Origin: a virus
Strand: one strand, 5' to 3'
Length of the DNA stretch: 64,000 nucleotides
IMG/VR virus record: IMGVR_UViG_3300017963_000192
Location: 124,001 to 188,000 of that record
The position numbers were made by a program, and so were the translations under genes. Of this stretch, positions 66 to 18,068 are shown piece by piece (position 1 is the stretch's first letter; each line of letters starts with the position of its first letter). The notes beneath the pieces are model-generated. The model had not been told where the DNA came from and did no database searches. It worked only from the letters and a program-made list of their open reading frames with translations.

Positions 66-89
66 ATTATAAAAGTTACAGTTTGTCAA
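66..89 (-). promoter_or_regulatory. Possible leftward promoter
   Basis: On the minus strand a perfect TTGACA box (84-89) is followed by TATAAT (66-71), but only 12 bases separate them, shorter than the normal 16-18. A GGAGG Shine-Dalgarno site lies downstream at 40-44. The boxes are good and the spacing is poor, so this is only a candidate promoter for a gene off the left edge. Confidence 0.3.
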
Positions 90-90
90 T

Positions 91-127
91 AAAAAAACCC
101 TTCTAAAAATAAGGAGGGTTTTTTTAT
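91..127. terminator. Bidirectional intrinsic terminator
   Basis: A hairpin with CCCTTCT/AGGAGGG arms (one T-G wobble) extended by AAA/TTT pairs has T runs on both outer sides, so it can stop transcription in either direction. On the minus strand it closes the unit that contains genes 1475-2101 and 705-1448 and the tRNA-like array. Confidence 0.75.
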
Positions 128-223
128 TGGTTTTCTGTTCAATTCTGCTCAATTCTTATCTCTTCTGTTCAGTTCTCGTCATATCTTTTCAGCTCTTGCC
201 ACCTCACTTCTTTTAACTAATTT

Positions 224-270
224 GACCAGCTAAGTAATGAACTTAGAAAACTTCTTTAAAAGTTCTGGTC
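224..270 (-). ncRNA. tRNA-like structured RNA element 1
   Basis: Read on the minus strand, this 47-nt unit folds as a 6-bp closing stem (GACCAG/CTGGTC), a 5-bp hairpin with loop TTAAAG (AACTT/AAGTT), two unpaired bases, then a 5-bp hairpin with a 7-nt loop (CTAAG-TTCATTA-CTTAG) abutting the closing stem. This resembles the acceptor and T arm of a tRNA with the anticodon arm missing. Elements 2 and 3 have identical geometry and different stem sequences. Function unknown. Confidence 0.65.
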
Positions 271-284
271 TTTTCTACTCTTAA

Positions 285-369
285 CTTCTCAGATCTAAAC
301 TATTCAAATCTCGTCTACTCTTAACTTGCCTGATCTAGTCTGTTCCTATCTTATAACTAATTTGGGCAG
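285..369. repeat. 85-bp imperfect direct repeat, copy A
   Basis: This 85-base stretch matches 582-666 with 6 differences by eye and no gaps. It comprises the spacer between tRNA-like elements plus the first bases of the next element. On the minus strand it is purine-rich. Both copies end with AACTAATTTGGGCAG, which includes a tail conserved beside all four elements. Confidence 0.85.
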
Positions 370-410
370 TTAGGTAACGAACCTAATTAATTTCTTTAAA
401 AATTCTGCCC
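364..410 (-). ncRNA. tRNA-like structured RNA element 2
   Basis: This is a 47-nt minus-strand unit with the same architecture as element 1: closing stem GGGCAG/CTGCCC, hairpin AATTT-TTAAAG-AAATT, two-base linker, then TTAGG-TTCGTTA-CCTAA. All three stems differ from element 1 by compensating base pairs, while the TTAAAG loop and TTCrTTA loop are kept. That covariation is the main reason to believe the fold. Confidence 0.65.
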
Positions 411-518
411 TCCTCTGTTCTGGACAATTCTTTTCTTTCCTATTCTTTACTCATCAAAACTATCCTACTCTACTCATGTCTGCTCTTTTCTTCTCTCCTC
501 TTTCCATTTAACTAATTA

Positions 519-565
519 GGGCAGCCAAGTAATGAACTTGAACAATTCCTTTAAGAATTCTGCCC
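519..565 (-). ncRNA. tRNA-like structured RNA element 3
   Basis: This is the third 47-nt minus-strand unit: closing stem GGGCAG/CTGCCC, hairpin AATTC-TTAAAG-GAATT, two-base linker, then TCAAG-TTCATTA-CTTGG with one T-G wobble. Stem lengths, loop lengths and linker match elements 1 and 2 exactly. The 3' flank on the minus strand carries the conserved AATTAGTT. Confidence 0.65.
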
Positions 566-581
566 TCTTTGCTATTCTTGT

Positions 582-666
582 CTTCTCAGATCTAAACTAT
601 TCAATTCTCGTCTATTCTTAACTTGCCTGATCTAACCTGATCTTATCTTATAACTAATTTGGGCAG
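582..666. repeat. 85-bp imperfect direct repeat, copy B
   Basis: This is the partner of 285-369, with 6 differences in 85 bases by eye. It separates element 3 from element 4. The duplication suggests the array grew by copying a spacer-plus-element unit. Confidence 0.85.
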
Positions 667-721
667 TGGAGGATTAGAACCTCCACTAACAAACCAAAGT
701 TATATTAACCAACCTTTGCCC
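661..721 (-). ncRNA. tRNA-like element 4 (larger, closest to a real tRNA)
   Basis: On the minus strand this 61-nt unit has a GGGCA/TGCCC closing stem, a D-arm-like hairpin (GTT-GGTTAATAT-AAC, with the GG of a D loop) and a 7-bp T-like arm, GTGGAGG-TTCTAAT-CCTCCAC, with a near-canonical T loop. No proper anticodon arm is visible, so it does not look like a functional tRNA. Its 5' end overlaps the last codons and stop of the gene at 705-1448, so it sits in that gene's 3' end. It is followed by the same AATTAGTT tail as the other elements. Confidence 0.6.
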
Positions 722-1448
722 AATTCTTATCTTTGATAACTGGATTAAATGGTTCAATGGTGTCTGATGCAACAATGCCTTTAATTGAATATGTTCCATA
801 TGTTCCAGAATTTTCCGGTCTCCAGGCACCGTATCCAGATAATGCTCCAGCTTTTACTATTATCTCAGTCATTTGTTCTGGACTAATAACGTTTTCATCA
901 AAAGCAACTCTTAAATTTAAAGTCCAATCAGAAAACATTGCTCTGTAAAAAGGCACCAAACTCCCTTTCTTACCACCGAGATTTCCAAGTTCAATGCTTT
1001 TATCGTACTTTTTATATTTAATTGGAATTAAACCTCTCCTTGCTGTAGGAACTACAAAAATAGCCGCCTCTAATGCTTTTTTCATTTTTCTTCCTAGGAG
1101 ATTTTGACCAACATTTACAAACGATTTTTTAAATCCTATTGCAGGTACTCCTACTAAACCTTTTTTTTCATCGAGCCAATGAGCCTTTCCTTTACATTCC
1201 TCATCAGGGTCAACTGCTTTGGTTCTTTTAAGGATTTTATTTTTTTCTTTTTCAAAATCTTCTCTTCGCTCTTTTAAAAGATTTTTTGATTTTGCGTTTT
1301 GAAGAAGCTCTGTTTGCCCTTCAATAACAAACTCAATCCACGAAATAAATCGAGATGGCTCTATAATATTTAGATTATCTTTTACAGAGCCTCCCTTTTT
1401 TTCTGCTTTTTTGCCTAATTCTTGTACACTATCCTTTTTCTTTGGCAT
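705..1448 (-). CDS. Phage protein of unknown function with GYGxWRPE motif
   Basis: A 247-residue protein starting 8 bases after an AGGAGG site. The first 35 residues are lysine-rich and probably disordered. The C-terminal third carries a glycine-rich signature (GYGAWRPENSGTYGTY) after the segment FSDWTLNLRVAFDENVIS. I associate this pattern with an uncharacterised protein family found in other tailed phages, from memory and unverified. It is the last protein gene of its transcript before the tRNA-like RNA array, and its stop lies inside element 4. There are no membrane segments. The role is unknown. Confidence 0.85.
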   Translation of the reverse strand: MPKKKDSVQELGKKAEKKGGSVKDNLNIIEPSRFISWIEFVIEGQTELLQNAKSKNLLKERREDFEKEKNKILKRTKAVDPDEECKGKAHWLDEKKGLVGVPAIGFKKSFVNVGQNLLGRKMKKALEAAIFVVPTARRGLIPIKYKKYDKSIELGNLGGKKGSLVPFYRAMFSDWTLNLRVAFDENVISPEQMTEIIVKAGALSGYGAWRPENSGTYGTYSIKGIVASDTIEPFNPVIKDKNWAKVG

Positions 1449-1474: not shown

Positions 1475-2101
1475 TTAAATCAAAGGCTCATATTCATTCA
1501 CAATTTCTTGTAAAATACTAATCACCTTTTTTAATCTTTTTTCTATTGCTATAAAATGTAAATTTGCTTCACAATCATTTATAAGTGCTTTAGCTAATTT
1601 AACATATTGTAATGCTTGTTTCTTATCATCTATAATTATATCCGATAAATATTGAATCCTTTTATATTTTTTGTTAGATGTTGTTTTTACTCCATGAGAG
1701 CTATATTGAACAGGTATCTCTTTAAGAGAGTGTTTTATTATTTTATTGGCTGGTGCTTTTATTCTTGGTATAGGAACAAATGTAATAGACCTTTCTAATT
1801 GAGATATTTCTCTTGAAACATAAAGCAAATGCCCTTTCTTTTTATCCATAGTTAGAAGCTTGTGTATTTCTCTAAAATTATTAGAATCATATTGCTTTAT
1901 TAACATCTTTGCTATTTCTTTTGTAGTTTCTGCTCCAGTTTCATTTAAAAATTTGTAATAATCTTCTATACAAAGATTTTCATCAATATTTTTGCTTATC
2001 GCTTTTTTATGAAAAAAACTTTCTTCTTTGAACTTCCAACTTTTAATTTCGATTCCAATGTCATTTAGTTCTTTTTTTATAGACGATGTAAACTTAACCA
2101 T
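1475..2101 (-). CDS. Hypothetical protein, own promoter
   Basis: A 208-residue basic, largely helical protein that I do not recognise. It starts at an ATG preceded by AGGGGA. It does not share the capsid transcript: a tandem hairpin region at 2185-2242 separates them and a consensus promoter lies at 2132-2160. A regulatory or host-takeover role would fit an independently promoted gene beside the capsid cluster, but nothing in the sequence shows a function. It ends 26 bases before the gene at 705-1448, with which it is probably co-transcribed. Confidence 0.85.
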   Translation of the reverse strand: MVKFTSSIKKELNDIGIEIKSWKFKEESFFHKKAISKNIDENLCIEDYYKFLNETGAETTKEIAKMLIKQYDSNNFREIHKLLTMDKKKGHLLYVSREISQLERSITFVPIPRIKAPANKIIKHSLKEIPVQYSSHGVKTTSNKKYKRIQYLSDIIIDDKKQALQYVKLAKALINDCEANLHFIAIEKRLKKVISILQEIVNEYEPLI

Positions 2102-2277: not shown

Positions 2278-3444
2278 TTATGAACTCATCCAGCCAGGTA
2301 TAGTAGCTGAAGATTTAACAGCACACGCAACCGAACGTGGGTTAACAATTACTTGACTGATTTGCTCAAGGAATAACCATCCATAGGCTGGCTGGTTAAA
2401 CACGAACATATCAGCAGGAAGTACTGTAAGCTCTACCCTTATAGGCATTGCTCCAAGATATCTTCCTTCTGTAACAGCGAAGATAACGCCTTCAGGAACT
2501 GAAACGTTTTCAATTCCAGCTTCGTCAACACCCGCAGTTACGAATATGTTAACGCCCCAAATACTTCCAAAAATACCTGTTAAGAGAAGATCTCTTGAGG
2601 TAATTGGATCGTAATCGATTGCGTTGATGTTTTTCTTCAAGTCACCAAGTTCCGCCCTATTCATAATGAACTTGTCAACAAGTAATCTGTGTCTTTCAAC
2701 TTCGTATTGAAGTGTTTCAAGAACAGATTTGCTTATTGTTGAAGTAACATTAATCTGTGAGTTCTCAAGCGTAGATGCTTGGTAAAGCTCTTTAAGACCA
2801 TTTCTATCTTCTTTCAGCATAATCTGAAAGGTGGTCTTGTCGTGTGTTCTGTCTACGATGTCATACTGTCTTTGTGCTATCTCTGAGATAGTGATGATTG
2901 GTCGTGCAGTTACTAAGAATTCAGGTGGGAAAATCCTGTTTCCTTTAACTACAGTCTCAACTGTCTGACCATCTTCTTGGATAATAAGAGCAGTAACGTT
3001 TACGTCTTTTTCATAGGAGTTAATCTGACCTTGTGCCAGATTGTGAGTCCTATATACCTGTCTGATGAATCCTTCATAGTCTAGTCTATCAAGGATGAGT
3101 GGAATCATCTCTGCTCCAAATCGTAGCCTTTCAGCTTCGTCTGCCGCAAATACAGACTCAACGATTCTTTGCTTTTCTTCTGGAGTGTAAAAAGATTGTG
3201 CTTGTTTTCCTGGTCTCTGATACTGTGCTCGAAGTCCTGCGAACTTCATTTGCTGGTTTATTAAGTCTTGGTGATCATACGCATTAAGATTGCCTTTTGA
3301 GTCAAACATGTCTTCCTTGGATTCTACAAGTCTTCCGGCAGAGTTTTGTCCACCAAAAGATTTAGGGTTTAACAGCCTTTCGTCATATTTCTTTGCTATT
3401 GCAGCAGTTTTGACAGTTTTCTTTTCCATTTTTTCAGCCCACAT
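2278..3444 (-). CDS. Probable major capsid protein
   Basis: A 388-residue protein with AGGAGG six bases before its ATG. Length, position (last gene of the head transcript, directly after a decoration-like gene, with its own terminator) and composition fit a major capsid protein. After a helical N-terminal region of about 110 residues, it shows alternating strands and helices typical of HK97-like shell proteins, including NRIFPPEFLVTARPIITISE and a C-terminal beta-rich part with GRYLGAMPIRVELTVLPADM. The N-terminal 100 residues could be a delta domain removed by the protease; this is inference. I cannot name a specific family, and another abundant structural protein is the alternative. Confidence 0.7.
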   Translation of the reverse strand: MWAEKMEKKTVKTAAIAKKYDERLLNPKSFGGQNSAGRLVESKEDMFDSKGNLNAYDHQDLINQQMKFAGLRAQYQRPGKQAQSFYTPEEKQRIVESVFAADEAERLRFGAEMIPLILDRLDYEGFIRQVYRTHNLAQGQINSYEKDVNVTALIIQEDGQTVETVVKGNRIFPPEFLVTARPIITISEIAQRQYDIVDRTHDKTTFQIMLKEDRNGLKELYQASTLENSQINVTSTISKSVLETLQYEVERHRLLVDKFIMNRAELGDLKKNINAIDYDPITSRDLLLTGIFGSIWGVNIFVTAGVDEAGIENVSVPEGVIFAVTEGRYLGAMPIRVELTVLPADMFVFNQPAYGWLFLEQISQVIVNPRSVACAVKSSATIPGWMSS

Positions 3445-3454
3445 AGTAGCCTCC

Positions 3455-4153
3455 TTATGATAATCTCATTTGAAATTGAAGTTCAGGATCGTTGGCTGAT
3501 GGAACCTTTGTTACGAATCCTATTGTGACACCAGTGCCACCTATAGTTGGAAGACCGTTTGCACTAACTGTAACTGCTGCATTTAATGCCCAAGCAGCGT
3601 CAGTTTCATAAGCCAATGTAGCAATCTCACCAGAACCTTCAATAATCGCAGCACGACCACTACCAAGAGTCTGATCTATTCCTGTTAGATTAGGATCTTG
3701 ATATCTATAGTCAATTAATACAGTTTCAGTTGCACCGATACTTGAACCACCTCCAGCGTGGGTAATTATACCATTAGTTGCATTAACAGTATAGTCAGTA
3801 GTTACGGTGTAAGCGGTTCCATCAGAATCTGTTACTCTAACTGATGCACTTTGGATATTTGCGTTATTCAAAGTTATTGTTGTACCAGAACCTGTAAATG
3901 TTCCACTTTCATCAATCACAGGACGATAGAAACTAGTAGTCTTGTGGCAGAAAAACATACCAATAATTTTAATGTCGGCTGTGTTATCTGCAACTTTAGC
4001 TAGTCCAGTAGTTCCATCAAGAGTTGCAATATAACCTGCAATGAAGTCCGCAGAAGAATCTACGTCTCTCCATCCAGATATTATGTTGCCGCTCAGTTTA
4101 CGAACAGAATTAACAATTCCATTCCTCCCGATTGGGGGCAATACTGTACTCAT
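3455..4153 (-). CDS. Probable head decoration or auxiliary capsid protein
   Basis: A 232-residue beta-rich protein with an AGGAGG site, 10 bases upstream of the capsid gene and surely co-transcribed. The N- and C-terminal parts (about residues 1-75 and 155-232, the latter rich in small residues with AAVTVSANGLPTIGG) resemble small head-decoration proteins. The middle (about 80-150) reads like an inserted Ig-like or strand-rich domain (TITLNNANIQSASVRVTDSD). There is no signal peptide or membrane segment. The pairing of decoration protein and shell protein is a common phage arrangement; the identity is inferred from context and composition. Confidence 0.5.
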   Translation of the reverse strand: MSTVLPPIGRNGIVNSVRKLSGNIISGWRDVDSSADFIAGYIATLDGTTGLAKVADNTADIKIIGMFFCHKTTSFYRPVIDESGTFTGSGTTITLNNANIQSASVRVTDSDGTAYTVTTDYTVNATNGIITHAGGGSSIGATETVLIDYRYQDPNLTGIDQTLGSGRAAIIEGSGEIATLAYETDAAWALNAAVTVSANGLPTIGGTGVTIGFVTKVPSANDPELQFQMRLS

Positions 4154-16700: not shown

Positions 16701-18068
16701 ACCACATCCACACGCACATTTACGAGGCCATGTCCACACAGACCACTTGTGATTATCAGTACATTTAAACTTCTTTCCTCCCCAAAGGGTTATTTCAATT
16801 ATATTGTTAGGAATCCCCTCGTCCCAATTATCTGTAACTTTTTGTTCCATACCATCTTTATCAATAACAGAATCCCCTACTTCAATATCTTCAACGTTTT
16901 TATATCCTTGAGGAGTTGTGATTTTTGTACCTTTTGTAAAACAAGCATAAGTTGATTCCCCACTTAAAAATTGTTTTCCTACTCCAAGAGCAACCATTTT
17001 CTTCTCTGTAATGTCTGACCACTCTTTTTCAAGTCTCATAACCTTGTCTGCAACAGTAACATATTCAACATTTAAGCCATAATGATAGATTAAACTAAAG
17101 TTTGGGTCGAAAGTTGACTGTTGTAACATTTGAGCCAATGCTCTTTGGTGCGTTTCGTTAGGAATCCACCCCTTGTTAGCGTCACCTAGTTTAAAAATCT
17201 TTAAAGGATAGATAAAGTTGTCAGCAATTGTGATTTGAGCCTCTCTTAATTTGTCTTCGTACATCAAAAGCCTAAAAATTCGGCTTATTATTGAAGTTCC
17301 TCTAACATCATAAGGGTTACTTCTTCTTGCAATGTGTGTAACCTCATCTGGATCAAGTGTTATGTTTTTTCCTGTTAAAACTCTTCTAAAAACGTCTTGT
17401 GGGAGTCTTCCTTTAAGTCTTTGATCTTCGGGTTTTGTTGAATGTACTAAAGATTTAAGTTCATCGTCTGGTATAAGCTCAATTACGCTTTCCTGGTCTG
17501 CAAAAGGAGTGAATCTTACTTCAATAAAATCAGGATTATGAACTATAATATCTTCCCACATTCCAGTTTTACTGTTCCAAGGAGTGTGAATGAAAATTTC
17601 TCCAATTTTCATAAATTCCAAGTCTATTGCGGGTAATTTCGAGAAAAATCCTGTTTTTTCAATACATTCTTGAATATGTGTGTTAATATGAGGGTCATCA
17701 ACTACAATTTCTGCTTTTGAATAAGGTAATTCTGCATGAACATCTAAAACGGCTCCTACTAATTCATCATGATCGTAAAACCATCTACACCATCTATTTA
17801 TTTGCTTTAAAGTTCGTGGTAAATAAATAGCTGTGGTAGTAATCTCTGGATCATAGAATCTTCTGGAAGGATTTCTTAATATATTATTTCCCGCACCGTA
17901 TGCGGCAATTTGATTAAGAAGATTTCCACCACCTAATCCCAAAGATTGAAACTGACCACTCGTTCCTTTCTTAATTCTTTCCCTATCTGTTTCAGCATTA
18001 ATTGTTCTTGGTAACATATCCTGAAAACTTTCAGGTAAAGGAACATTTTCTTGATTGATTGTAGGCAT
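13710..18068 (-). CDS. Portal protein precursor with intein and long C-terminal extension
   Basis: A 1,452-residue precursor with GGAG before its ATG. Residues 1-375 are portal-like: the clip/wing region has WFYDHDELVGAVLDVHAELP and VTHIARRSNPYDVRGTSIIS, ending QFLSGESTYA. An intein occupies 376-786, after which the portal continues SANVGLQVQLSRYKAKRD. Splicing leaves 1,041 residues, about twice a usual portal. After a Pro/Gly linker (about residue 925) comes an extra domain of roughly 450 residues (WFKNLESPSIPSE to the end) that I do not recognise. The portal forms the DNA entry ring of the head. Confidence 0.8.
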   Translation of the reverse strand: MPTINQENVPLPESFQDMLPRTINAETDRERIKKGTSGQFQSLGLGGGNLLNQIAAYGAGNNILRNPSRRFYDPEITTTAIYLPRTLKQINRWCRWFYDHDELVGAVLDVHAELPYSKAEIVVDDPHINTHIQECIEKTGFFSKLPAIDLEFMKIGEIFIHTPWNSKTGMWEDIIVHNPDFIEVRFTPFADQESVIELIPDDELKSLVHSTKPEDQRLKGRLPQDVFRRVLTGKNITLDPDEVTHIARRSNPYDVRGTSIISRIFRLLMYEDKLREAQITIADNFIYPLKIFKLGDANKGWIPNETHQRALAQMLQQSTFDPNFSLIYHYGLNVEYVTVADKVMRLEKEWSDITEKKMVALGVGKQFLSGESTYACFTKGTKITTPQGYKNVEDIEVGDSVIDKDGMEQKVTDNWDEGIPNNIIEITLWGGKKFKCTDNHKWSVWTWPRKCACGCGREVNAGKLYAHSIGKSPRIKLNPIDIGRTTIRKKYISGLPINYNPIKKLKAEEIKQWDYLMIPRNFVEVDTNTTETSARLLGYFIAEGCYEKHHTTKELHGIRLCFGENESKYIDDVTNLCAIEGIPISSFSNKQGALHLRSITQNIVKDKVNWFKKHAGEYSHKKQLSKEVMGWSLNLKKELIKGIFRGDGCHQINKRNGQHTVHFTTTSKILANQIELILAQIGFPVNWTIQDNNKRNLTSKYKRKPIIRLDIYGKFAFDLAKLIWEEECTFDFDDSHKFKGQKAFVDDNYVYLMVKSVESIKNTKKVYNLTVENSHSYLVDNVGTYNSANVGLQVQLSRYKAKRDLFQVLWIQDKFFRIMAEKNNWYRRDKKELVGQYRVSRSGRELEERLIVPKILWHKKLMMRDDQAFMTFMNNVYAQGKGPISAITLLQLMGMSLEDELSNKKKQKELEEKIGAFIHPLVGSAAGVGSPLGGTPPPTGSVTAKIKDKLGLGKKKTAETEEISKEDIEDLESESREFIGKEGTVETAKPSPEEIKVKEADFDSEITKNLHPVDDDTWFKNLESPSIPSEVKLLLINLNNKLSVIDKKSNGDFKEGILQENEDISKILTNLYKQGKLHSYSVTEFYPIHQEYYSDSDDLTDYSDLMLSREFEEWTKMFASSNLDKSEIFKHLRNLGNTCFAYGQLKGYQEQGVYTVKLSNVVKNDGLRYGVKQLLSKGRNLGSIISAKNEILIMYPCIEGFDDEEFGNNVDPHIQRHRSHSIAGINVKDCPIEYIPQLSRFLNKVGKFIKKDYDNIIFVLDVVDLEEWETSQKEKLEKKYSDIPDKDAKNNLIRNTLSYEKIQKKGMIPVFNQGKNLYISNWVGMEECSFTESLLKHITVVNDSNEKVIRKAFKQSNFDLSQEEMSTYKVFNQIEPISDDPDNPRGFKLSEKFKDSPEVNYKLKQGKLWDVNGKCLNGHETDEVLIFVENLRLWIDYPHLLNDELKKSFEEL
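15711..16943 (-). other. Portal intein with LAGLIDADG-type endonuclease
   Basis: A 411-residue intein, residues 376-786 of the precursor. It begins CFTKGTKITTPQGY (block A), has CTDNHKW (block B), two DOD-type motifs (LLGYFIAEGC and LIKGIFRGDGC) and ends HSYLVDNVGTYN before Ser+1. The penultimate residue is Tyr rather than the usual His. It splits the portal after GESTYA, in a segment that is otherwise continuous portal sequence. Confidence 0.9.

Follow-up and report, generated by a model that had tools for sequence, protein, structure and literature searches.

The window analysed here, a 64,000-nt stretch of a viral genome (IMG/VR record IMGVR_UViG_3300017963_000192, positions 124,001 to 188,000), begins with tRNA-like folds repeated along the minus strand. 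The locus raises the question of what these folds are for and what the spacers between them encode. The preferred reading, with a probability of about 0.72, is that the window carries a jumbo-phage VIPR-type system, the guide array of which is punctuated by tRNA-like elements and processed by RNase P and tRNase Z. The fold and covariation of the units, the pentamer code, the Vipr homology, the RAMP fold, the order of the parts and the recurrence of tRNA-like punctuation were computed here. The parts of the locus are listed in Table 1.

Table 1. Parts of the window locus, in order along the minus strand.
Feature	Positions	Strand	Evidence
Candidate accessory (vap-like) gene, 208 aa	1475..2101	minus	42% identical homologue directly upstream of vipr in G001/L286
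vipr, RAMP/Cas7-like, 247 aa, divergent phrog_4652 member	705..1448	minus	profile, BLASTP, structure
U4, acceptor-like stem, D-like arm and T-like arm, between vipr mRNA and first guide	659..721	minus	fold, sub-threshold tRNA covariance model
vr1, putative guide RNA (vrRNA), 17 WGA/NN pentamers after AATTAGTTA leader	566..660	minus	G 17/17, period-5 scan
U3, 47-nt tRNA-like separator	519..565	minus	fold, covariation, model R1 (63.8 bits)
vr2, putative guide RNA, 19 pentamers	411..518	minus	G 19/19
U2, 47-nt tRNA-like separator	364..410	minus	fold, covariation, model R1
vr3, putative guide RNA, 16 pentamers, diverged vr1 duplicate	271..363	minus	G 16/16, 90% identical spacer copy
U1, 47-nt tRNA-like separator	224..270	minus	fold, covariation, model R1
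vr4, putative guide RNA, 17 pentamers	130..223	minus	G 16/17
Terminator-like hairpin and T-run ending the array	87..129	minus	18-nt arms, 94% complementary

Structure and conservation of the units

The first-pass annotation described three 47-nt minus-strand units of one shape, and the sequence, coordinates and fold were as it had claimed. U1-U3 are each composed of a 6-bp closing stem, a 5-bp hairpin with a TTAAAG loop, a 2-nt linker and a 5-bp T-like arm, the 7-nt loop of which reads TTCATTA or TTCGTTA. This shape was the minimum-energy structure of each unit (z -2.9 to -3.3), with the predicted hairpin loops closing by one further pair. All pair cells were formed (48/48), and both sides had changed in 7 of the 16 pairs, whereas control structures slid by 1-3 columns gave 0-1 such pairs. 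The compensating stem changes that the annotation had reported are therefore real. The unit starts, i.e., 224, 364, 519 and 661, are spaced by 140-155 nt, and all four units are followed by (A/T)AATTAGTTA, in agreement with the recurrence and common following sequence first noticed.

The fourth unit was likewise found with its D- and T-like arms and without an anticodon arm. Its fold gave a z of -3.5, and its match to the Rfam tRNA model was sub-threshold (19.4 bits, cut-off 29). U4 spans the vipr stop codon (705-707). This overlap was missed in the first description of the array, as was the 5-nt period of the spacers, although the units themselves were given correctly. The acceptor and T stems form a helix of 11-12 bp in U1-U3 and about 14 bp in U4. 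In U1-U3, the acceptor stem is stacked on the T-arm and the T-loop has TTC, in keeping with the geometry of a tRNA-like RNase P/Z substrate, for which about 12 bp in total are expected. No tRNA was detected by ARAGORN within the window, no cloverleaf with an anticodon arm was recognised in the units by Rfam or ARAGORN, and no CCA is encoded in them.

The same shape was found in a related phage. Vipr is also encoded by two phages with capsid proteins related to that of the window phage, and in a phage of 252,876 bp (G001, locus L286) three units of the window shape alternate with two guides of about 11 pentamers each. The vipr frame of L286 has an in-frame TAA, and its C-terminal part shares 56% identity with the window Vipr; the neighbour gene is also homologous (Table 1). 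This cassette lies about 94 kb into the genome and the capsid gene near 229 kb, so the arrangement of cassette and capsid gene is not that of the window phage. Over the six units of the two phages, 98.9% of pair cells were formed, with compensatory changes in 11 of 15 pairs. The claim of a maintained RNA was thereby upheld, i.e., the fold is kept with compensatory changes both within the array and in the related phage. A covariance model of the six units (R1) was searched against both whole genomes and recovered these units only, other matches scoring about 15 bits, which is the chance level. Because R1 was built from the six units, their own scores follow from that construction, and what is informative is the absence of other copies in either genome. 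In another related phage of 236 kb (L287, G008:C1, about 105 kb), a short Vipr is accompanied by intergenic pentamer stretches of the GTT/NN type, a guide consensus unlike that of the window phage, and tRNA-like units are absent.

The tRNA likeness of the units, and the real tRNAs elsewhere in the phage, would also agree with decayed, functionless tRNA genes left between repeats. The annotation had proposed to recognise such decay by a tRNA search and by the stems in relatives; ARAGORN gave no tRNA in the window, and the stems are kept in the related phage. Compensatory changes maintain these stems, the shape recurs there with different guides, and the elements stand at guide borders. Decay is therefore very improbable.

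Other tRNA genes of this phage were observed outside the array. A tRNA with a CTA anticodon, named tRNA-Pyl by ARAGORN, is located downstream of the array at a distance of about 600 nt (L007 11400-11473, minus; genome 123400-123473). This tRNA and ATGACCTAG had hinted at stop-codon recoding, which was rejected on ordinary stop usage, with TAG ending 23 of 122 long ORFs. In the tRNA cluster of the phage, tRNA-like genes or split tRNAs carrying long insertions, which may be introns, were seen at L002 (about 3714-3766, minus) and L001 (about 16840-17000, minus), and one of them is without an anticodon arm.

Guides and the vipr gene

The spacers between units consist of 16-19 tandem pentamers in a strict 5-nt period. 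Pentamer position 5 is G in 68 of 69 cases, and the phase of this G with respect to the units is constant. A predominates at position 1 and A or T at position 4, and positions 2-3 take all bases (hypervariable NN), which gives the guide consensus WGA/NN or AGA/NN. These period-5 runs far exceed those in Markov sequence matched in dinucleotide composition, and only one weaker coding stretch elsewhere in the phage is comparable. Most differences between vr1 and vr3 fall on NN bases, six on the first base and none on the second. Read as NNx codons, the differences are conservative (p ~0.01, one comparison), a pattern in the sequences that fits guides tracking a coding target and lends indirect support to DNA recognition by NN with a one-base skip.

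Guide targets were searched with exact 11-NN patterns. None was found in viral_contigs for the four guides (vr1 and vr3 as one pattern), nor in genome_contigs for vr1/vr3 and vr2. No target was found in the phage's own genome and two related phages; the top related-phage score, 26/36 bases for vr3 in G008 where shuffled sequence reached at most 24, is unconvincing given the many tests.

The product of 705-1448 was assigned to phrog_4652 (E 3e-15) and aligned with a homologue at locus L107 in BLASTP (5e-12). The profile of the aligned family matched PDB 36pp, 'SUSP1 Vipr protein', with E 3e-66. No Pfam or NCBIfam match was obtained for this product, and a defence-library search with 69 family members gave nothing above weak noise. 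The AlphaFold models of the window Vipr and of a homologue had mean pLDDT of 74 and 95, and the best PDB matches of both in Foldseek were Cmr, Csm and type VII CRISPR RAMP subunits. In the Vipr tree, the window protein is on a long branch. Since the gene just upstream of the array falls in phrog_4652, which includes the Vipr solved as PDB 36pp, the window locus is a divergent VIPR system with an AGA/NN code. The product of 1475..2101 had no Pfam match, and no known vap matched it.

Members of phrog_4652 are found in Felix-O1-like, Pseudomonas, Gordonia, Mycobacterium, Vibrio and Listonella phages and in Bradyrhizobium and Azospirillum plasmids. At every locus read except one, a period-5 G array adjoins the phrog_4652 gene on the same strand. 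Of 102 loci flanked by 1 kb or more on each side, 99 had a same-strand period-5 array within 1.5 kb of vipr; the 1.5 kb and 11-of-12 thresholds were set by the analyst, and these counts are not independent events because many loci are related. Related loci were gathered with a back-translated protein motif. In loci picked by the protein motif only, array coverage was 0.083 near vipr and 0.0011 beyond 2.5 kb. No hammerhead ribozyme was found in the examined loci by a crude pattern, which is weak evidence.

The spacing of the pentamers is also that of host TRAP sites, i.e., (G/U)AG every 5 nt. The array could accordingly be an RNA sponge or decoy, in which the pentamers mimic TRAP sites or, as the first-pass annotation suggested, the units bait tRNA-cutting defences. 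However, the gene that accompanies the arrays across phages is vipr, over hosts including E. coli, Gordonia and Vibrio and with a varying consensus (GGYNN, AGCNN, GTTNN, AGANN), and a search of the window phage for a TRAP gene gave none. The host TRAP sponge was rejected on these grounds. The bait proposal is likewise unsupported, as the units are without an anticodon arm and, within the searched sequence, were met nowhere but in Vipr arrays. As a whole, a sponge or decoy is scarcely more probable than tRNA decay, and guide arrays of a VIPR system remain the preferred reading of the pentamers.

Several observations were made in the same surveys. A scan of IMG/VR for AG every 5 nt was tried as a finder of Vipr arrays and rejected, as it gave mostly coding repeats or simple repeats and Vipr arrays in a minority. 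By eye, L111, L064, L114, L095 and others had AG every 5 nt inside ORFs coding SIGKDSIGK-like repeats. Palindromic iteron-like repeats precede these stretches, the ORFs may be replication-initiator genes with an origin inside them, and the stretches look unrelated to Vipr arrays. In phiHSIC (L150) and LittleE (L148), the vipr cassette is on the strand opposite the surrounding structural genes, in a moron-like manner. In Gordonia phage UmaThurman (L151), a pentamer array at 3068-3403 underlies almost all of annotated gene 40 (3095-3418), which is probably not a protein gene.

A second form of tRNA-like unit

An acceptor plus T-arm scan near the arrays gave 57 matches on the array strand and 0 on the opposite strand. 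This second form is mostly 40-42 nt long and has a 5-7 bp acceptor, a 9-11 nt linker with a near-invariant GG, and a 5-7 bp T stem with a TTC loop, GTTC being invariant. The 29 aligned units formed an 11-13 bp helix with the TTC loop and had 77 compensatory cells; only the variety of pair types counts as evidence in this set because the units were picked for complete pairing. A model of the second form gave matches in 23 of 78 other Vipr loci, in every case on the strand of vipr and the array; the loci with a named host come from phages of Gordonia and Mycobacterium. As the window units were not matched by this model, the two forms are separate. No tRNA-like unit in the scanned loci had an Rfam match at cut-off. 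The earlier remark that no described family has this exact shape thus stands as to Rfam, whereas the surrounding system had already been described in the VIPR preprint.

On the Vipr tree, the label 'tRNA-like' needs 9 changes, of which at least 6 are forced by well-supported branches. The number of origins of the tRNA-like punctuation is unsure because the window Vipr is a long branch. In polycistronic tRNA-gRNA, which is an engineered array, flanking tRNAs free the guides through RNase P and tRNase Z. It is fairly probable that a natural counterpart exists here, i.e., that tRNA mimics between VIPR guides hand maturation to host RNase P and RNase Z and have arisen separately in at least 2-3 Vipr lineages.

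Proposed processing and comparison with known systems

Small substrates made of an acceptor stem and a T-arm are acted on by RNase P and tRNase Z. In Haloferax, crRNA flanked by engineered t-elements was released via the same two enzymes (PMC7521656). The host tRNA enzymes are proposed as array cutters because of this mini-substrate activity and the t-element release. The units mark junctions, since one lies between vipr and vr1 and the others separate successive guides, and the last guide, vr4, is followed by the terminator-like hairpin and no unit. The hairpin is symmetrical and may be active on both strands. Given that the spacers are VIPR guides and that the units occupy the borders between vipr mRNA and guides, release of the guides by RNase P and tRNase Z is the best explanation and is predicted here. 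Counting against this reading are the negative target searches for the four guides, the departure of the units from full tRNAs (no anticodon arm, no encoded CCA, and a helix of 11-12 bp in U1-U3 but about 14 bp in U4), the last guide without a unit behind it, the in-frame TAA in the vipr frame of L286 and the long branch of the window Vipr.

We infer one common minus-strand transcript, which would run through the vap-like gene, vipr, U4, vr1, U3, vr2, U2, vr3, U1, vr4 and the terminator. Host RNase P would cut on the 5' side and tRNase Z on the 3' side of the acceptor/T-arm mimics, setting free the vipr mRNA together with four guide RNAs that each begin with AATTAGTTA. Vipr subunits would then coat the pentamers. 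The NN dinucleotides may pair with the DNA of a competing element, one base being skipped, and repress it, provided that the same rule holds for a divergent AGA/NN system. The function of the guides, the rule of the skipped base and the repression are carried over by analogy from relatives presented in the main text of the preprint (bioRxiv 2026.04.26.720920). There, VIPR consists of a RAMP-like Vipr in complex with guide RNAs built of GGY/NN pentamers (PMC13142463, bioRxiv 2026.04.26.720920), NN pairs with DNA with one base skipped, and competing phages are repressed (PMC13142463).

The units could instead be retained on the guide RNA, where they would form a structural handle or cap bound by Vipr or the accessory protein, with the tRNA likeness serving stability or loading, in the manner of a crRNA handle or of the structured 3' tail that the main text gives for SUSP1 vrRNAs (PMC13142463). 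The short sequence AATTAGWTA, conserved after each unit in the window phage and its relative, would also speak for such a handle, as does that tail. However, no unit stands 3' of the last guide and U4 overlaps the vipr stop codon, which point to junctions and no single fixed end, and features used by tRNA enzymes are kept, i.e., TTC in the T-loop and the acceptor stacked on the T stem. A retained handle is thus unlikely, though it deserves more weight than decay or a decoy, and cutting by RNase P and tRNase Z is preferred.

VIPR is a proposed forerunner of CRISPR, and its guide maturation has been studied for few types only. The tRNA-like punctuation, if true, would mean guide maturation without a dedicated nuclease in several phage lineages. 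The units also give a covariance-model handle for finding further VIPR arrays, and the locus is an example of a guide consensus shifted to AGA/NN, in a jumbo phage with AT-rich DNA.

Compared with the VIPR systems in the main text of the preprint, e.g., that of Escherichia phage SUSP1, the window locus shares the phrog_4652 RAMP protein, pentamers with a fixed G and hypervariable NN, several guides adjoining the gene, and a two-gene cassette in a phage. It differs in its code (AGA/NN against GGY/NN), in guide length (16-19 against 9-16 pentamers), in guides split by tRNA-like units, and in a neighbour gene unmatched to known vap. The array forms in the main text are tandem with a 3' tail, staggered, hammerhead-interspersed and single (PMC13142463); tRNA-like arrays and the word tRNA are absent from that main text, and the supplement may list such a type.

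The predicted fold of the window Vipr is shared with class 1 CRISPR RAMPs (Cas7, Csm3, Cmr), but the window is without CRISPR repeats and spacers, no cas gene was recognised adjoining the array, and the guide period is 5 nt. The units vary in sequence while their fold is kept, and the guides are periodic and not unique contiguous spacers, unlike a CRISPR array. With tRNA genes (RF00005) and viral tRNA-like structures, the units share the acceptor stem and the T-arm with a TTC loop, and the second form also the GG linker; they differ from tRNA genes (RF00005) in being without an anticodon arm and in having no Rfam match at cut-off. The engineered t-element guides of Haloferax (PMC7521656) are alike in the tRNA-like folds flanking a guide, whereas the window units are natural, many per array, and a shortened acceptor/T-arm mimic for which cutting is predicted.
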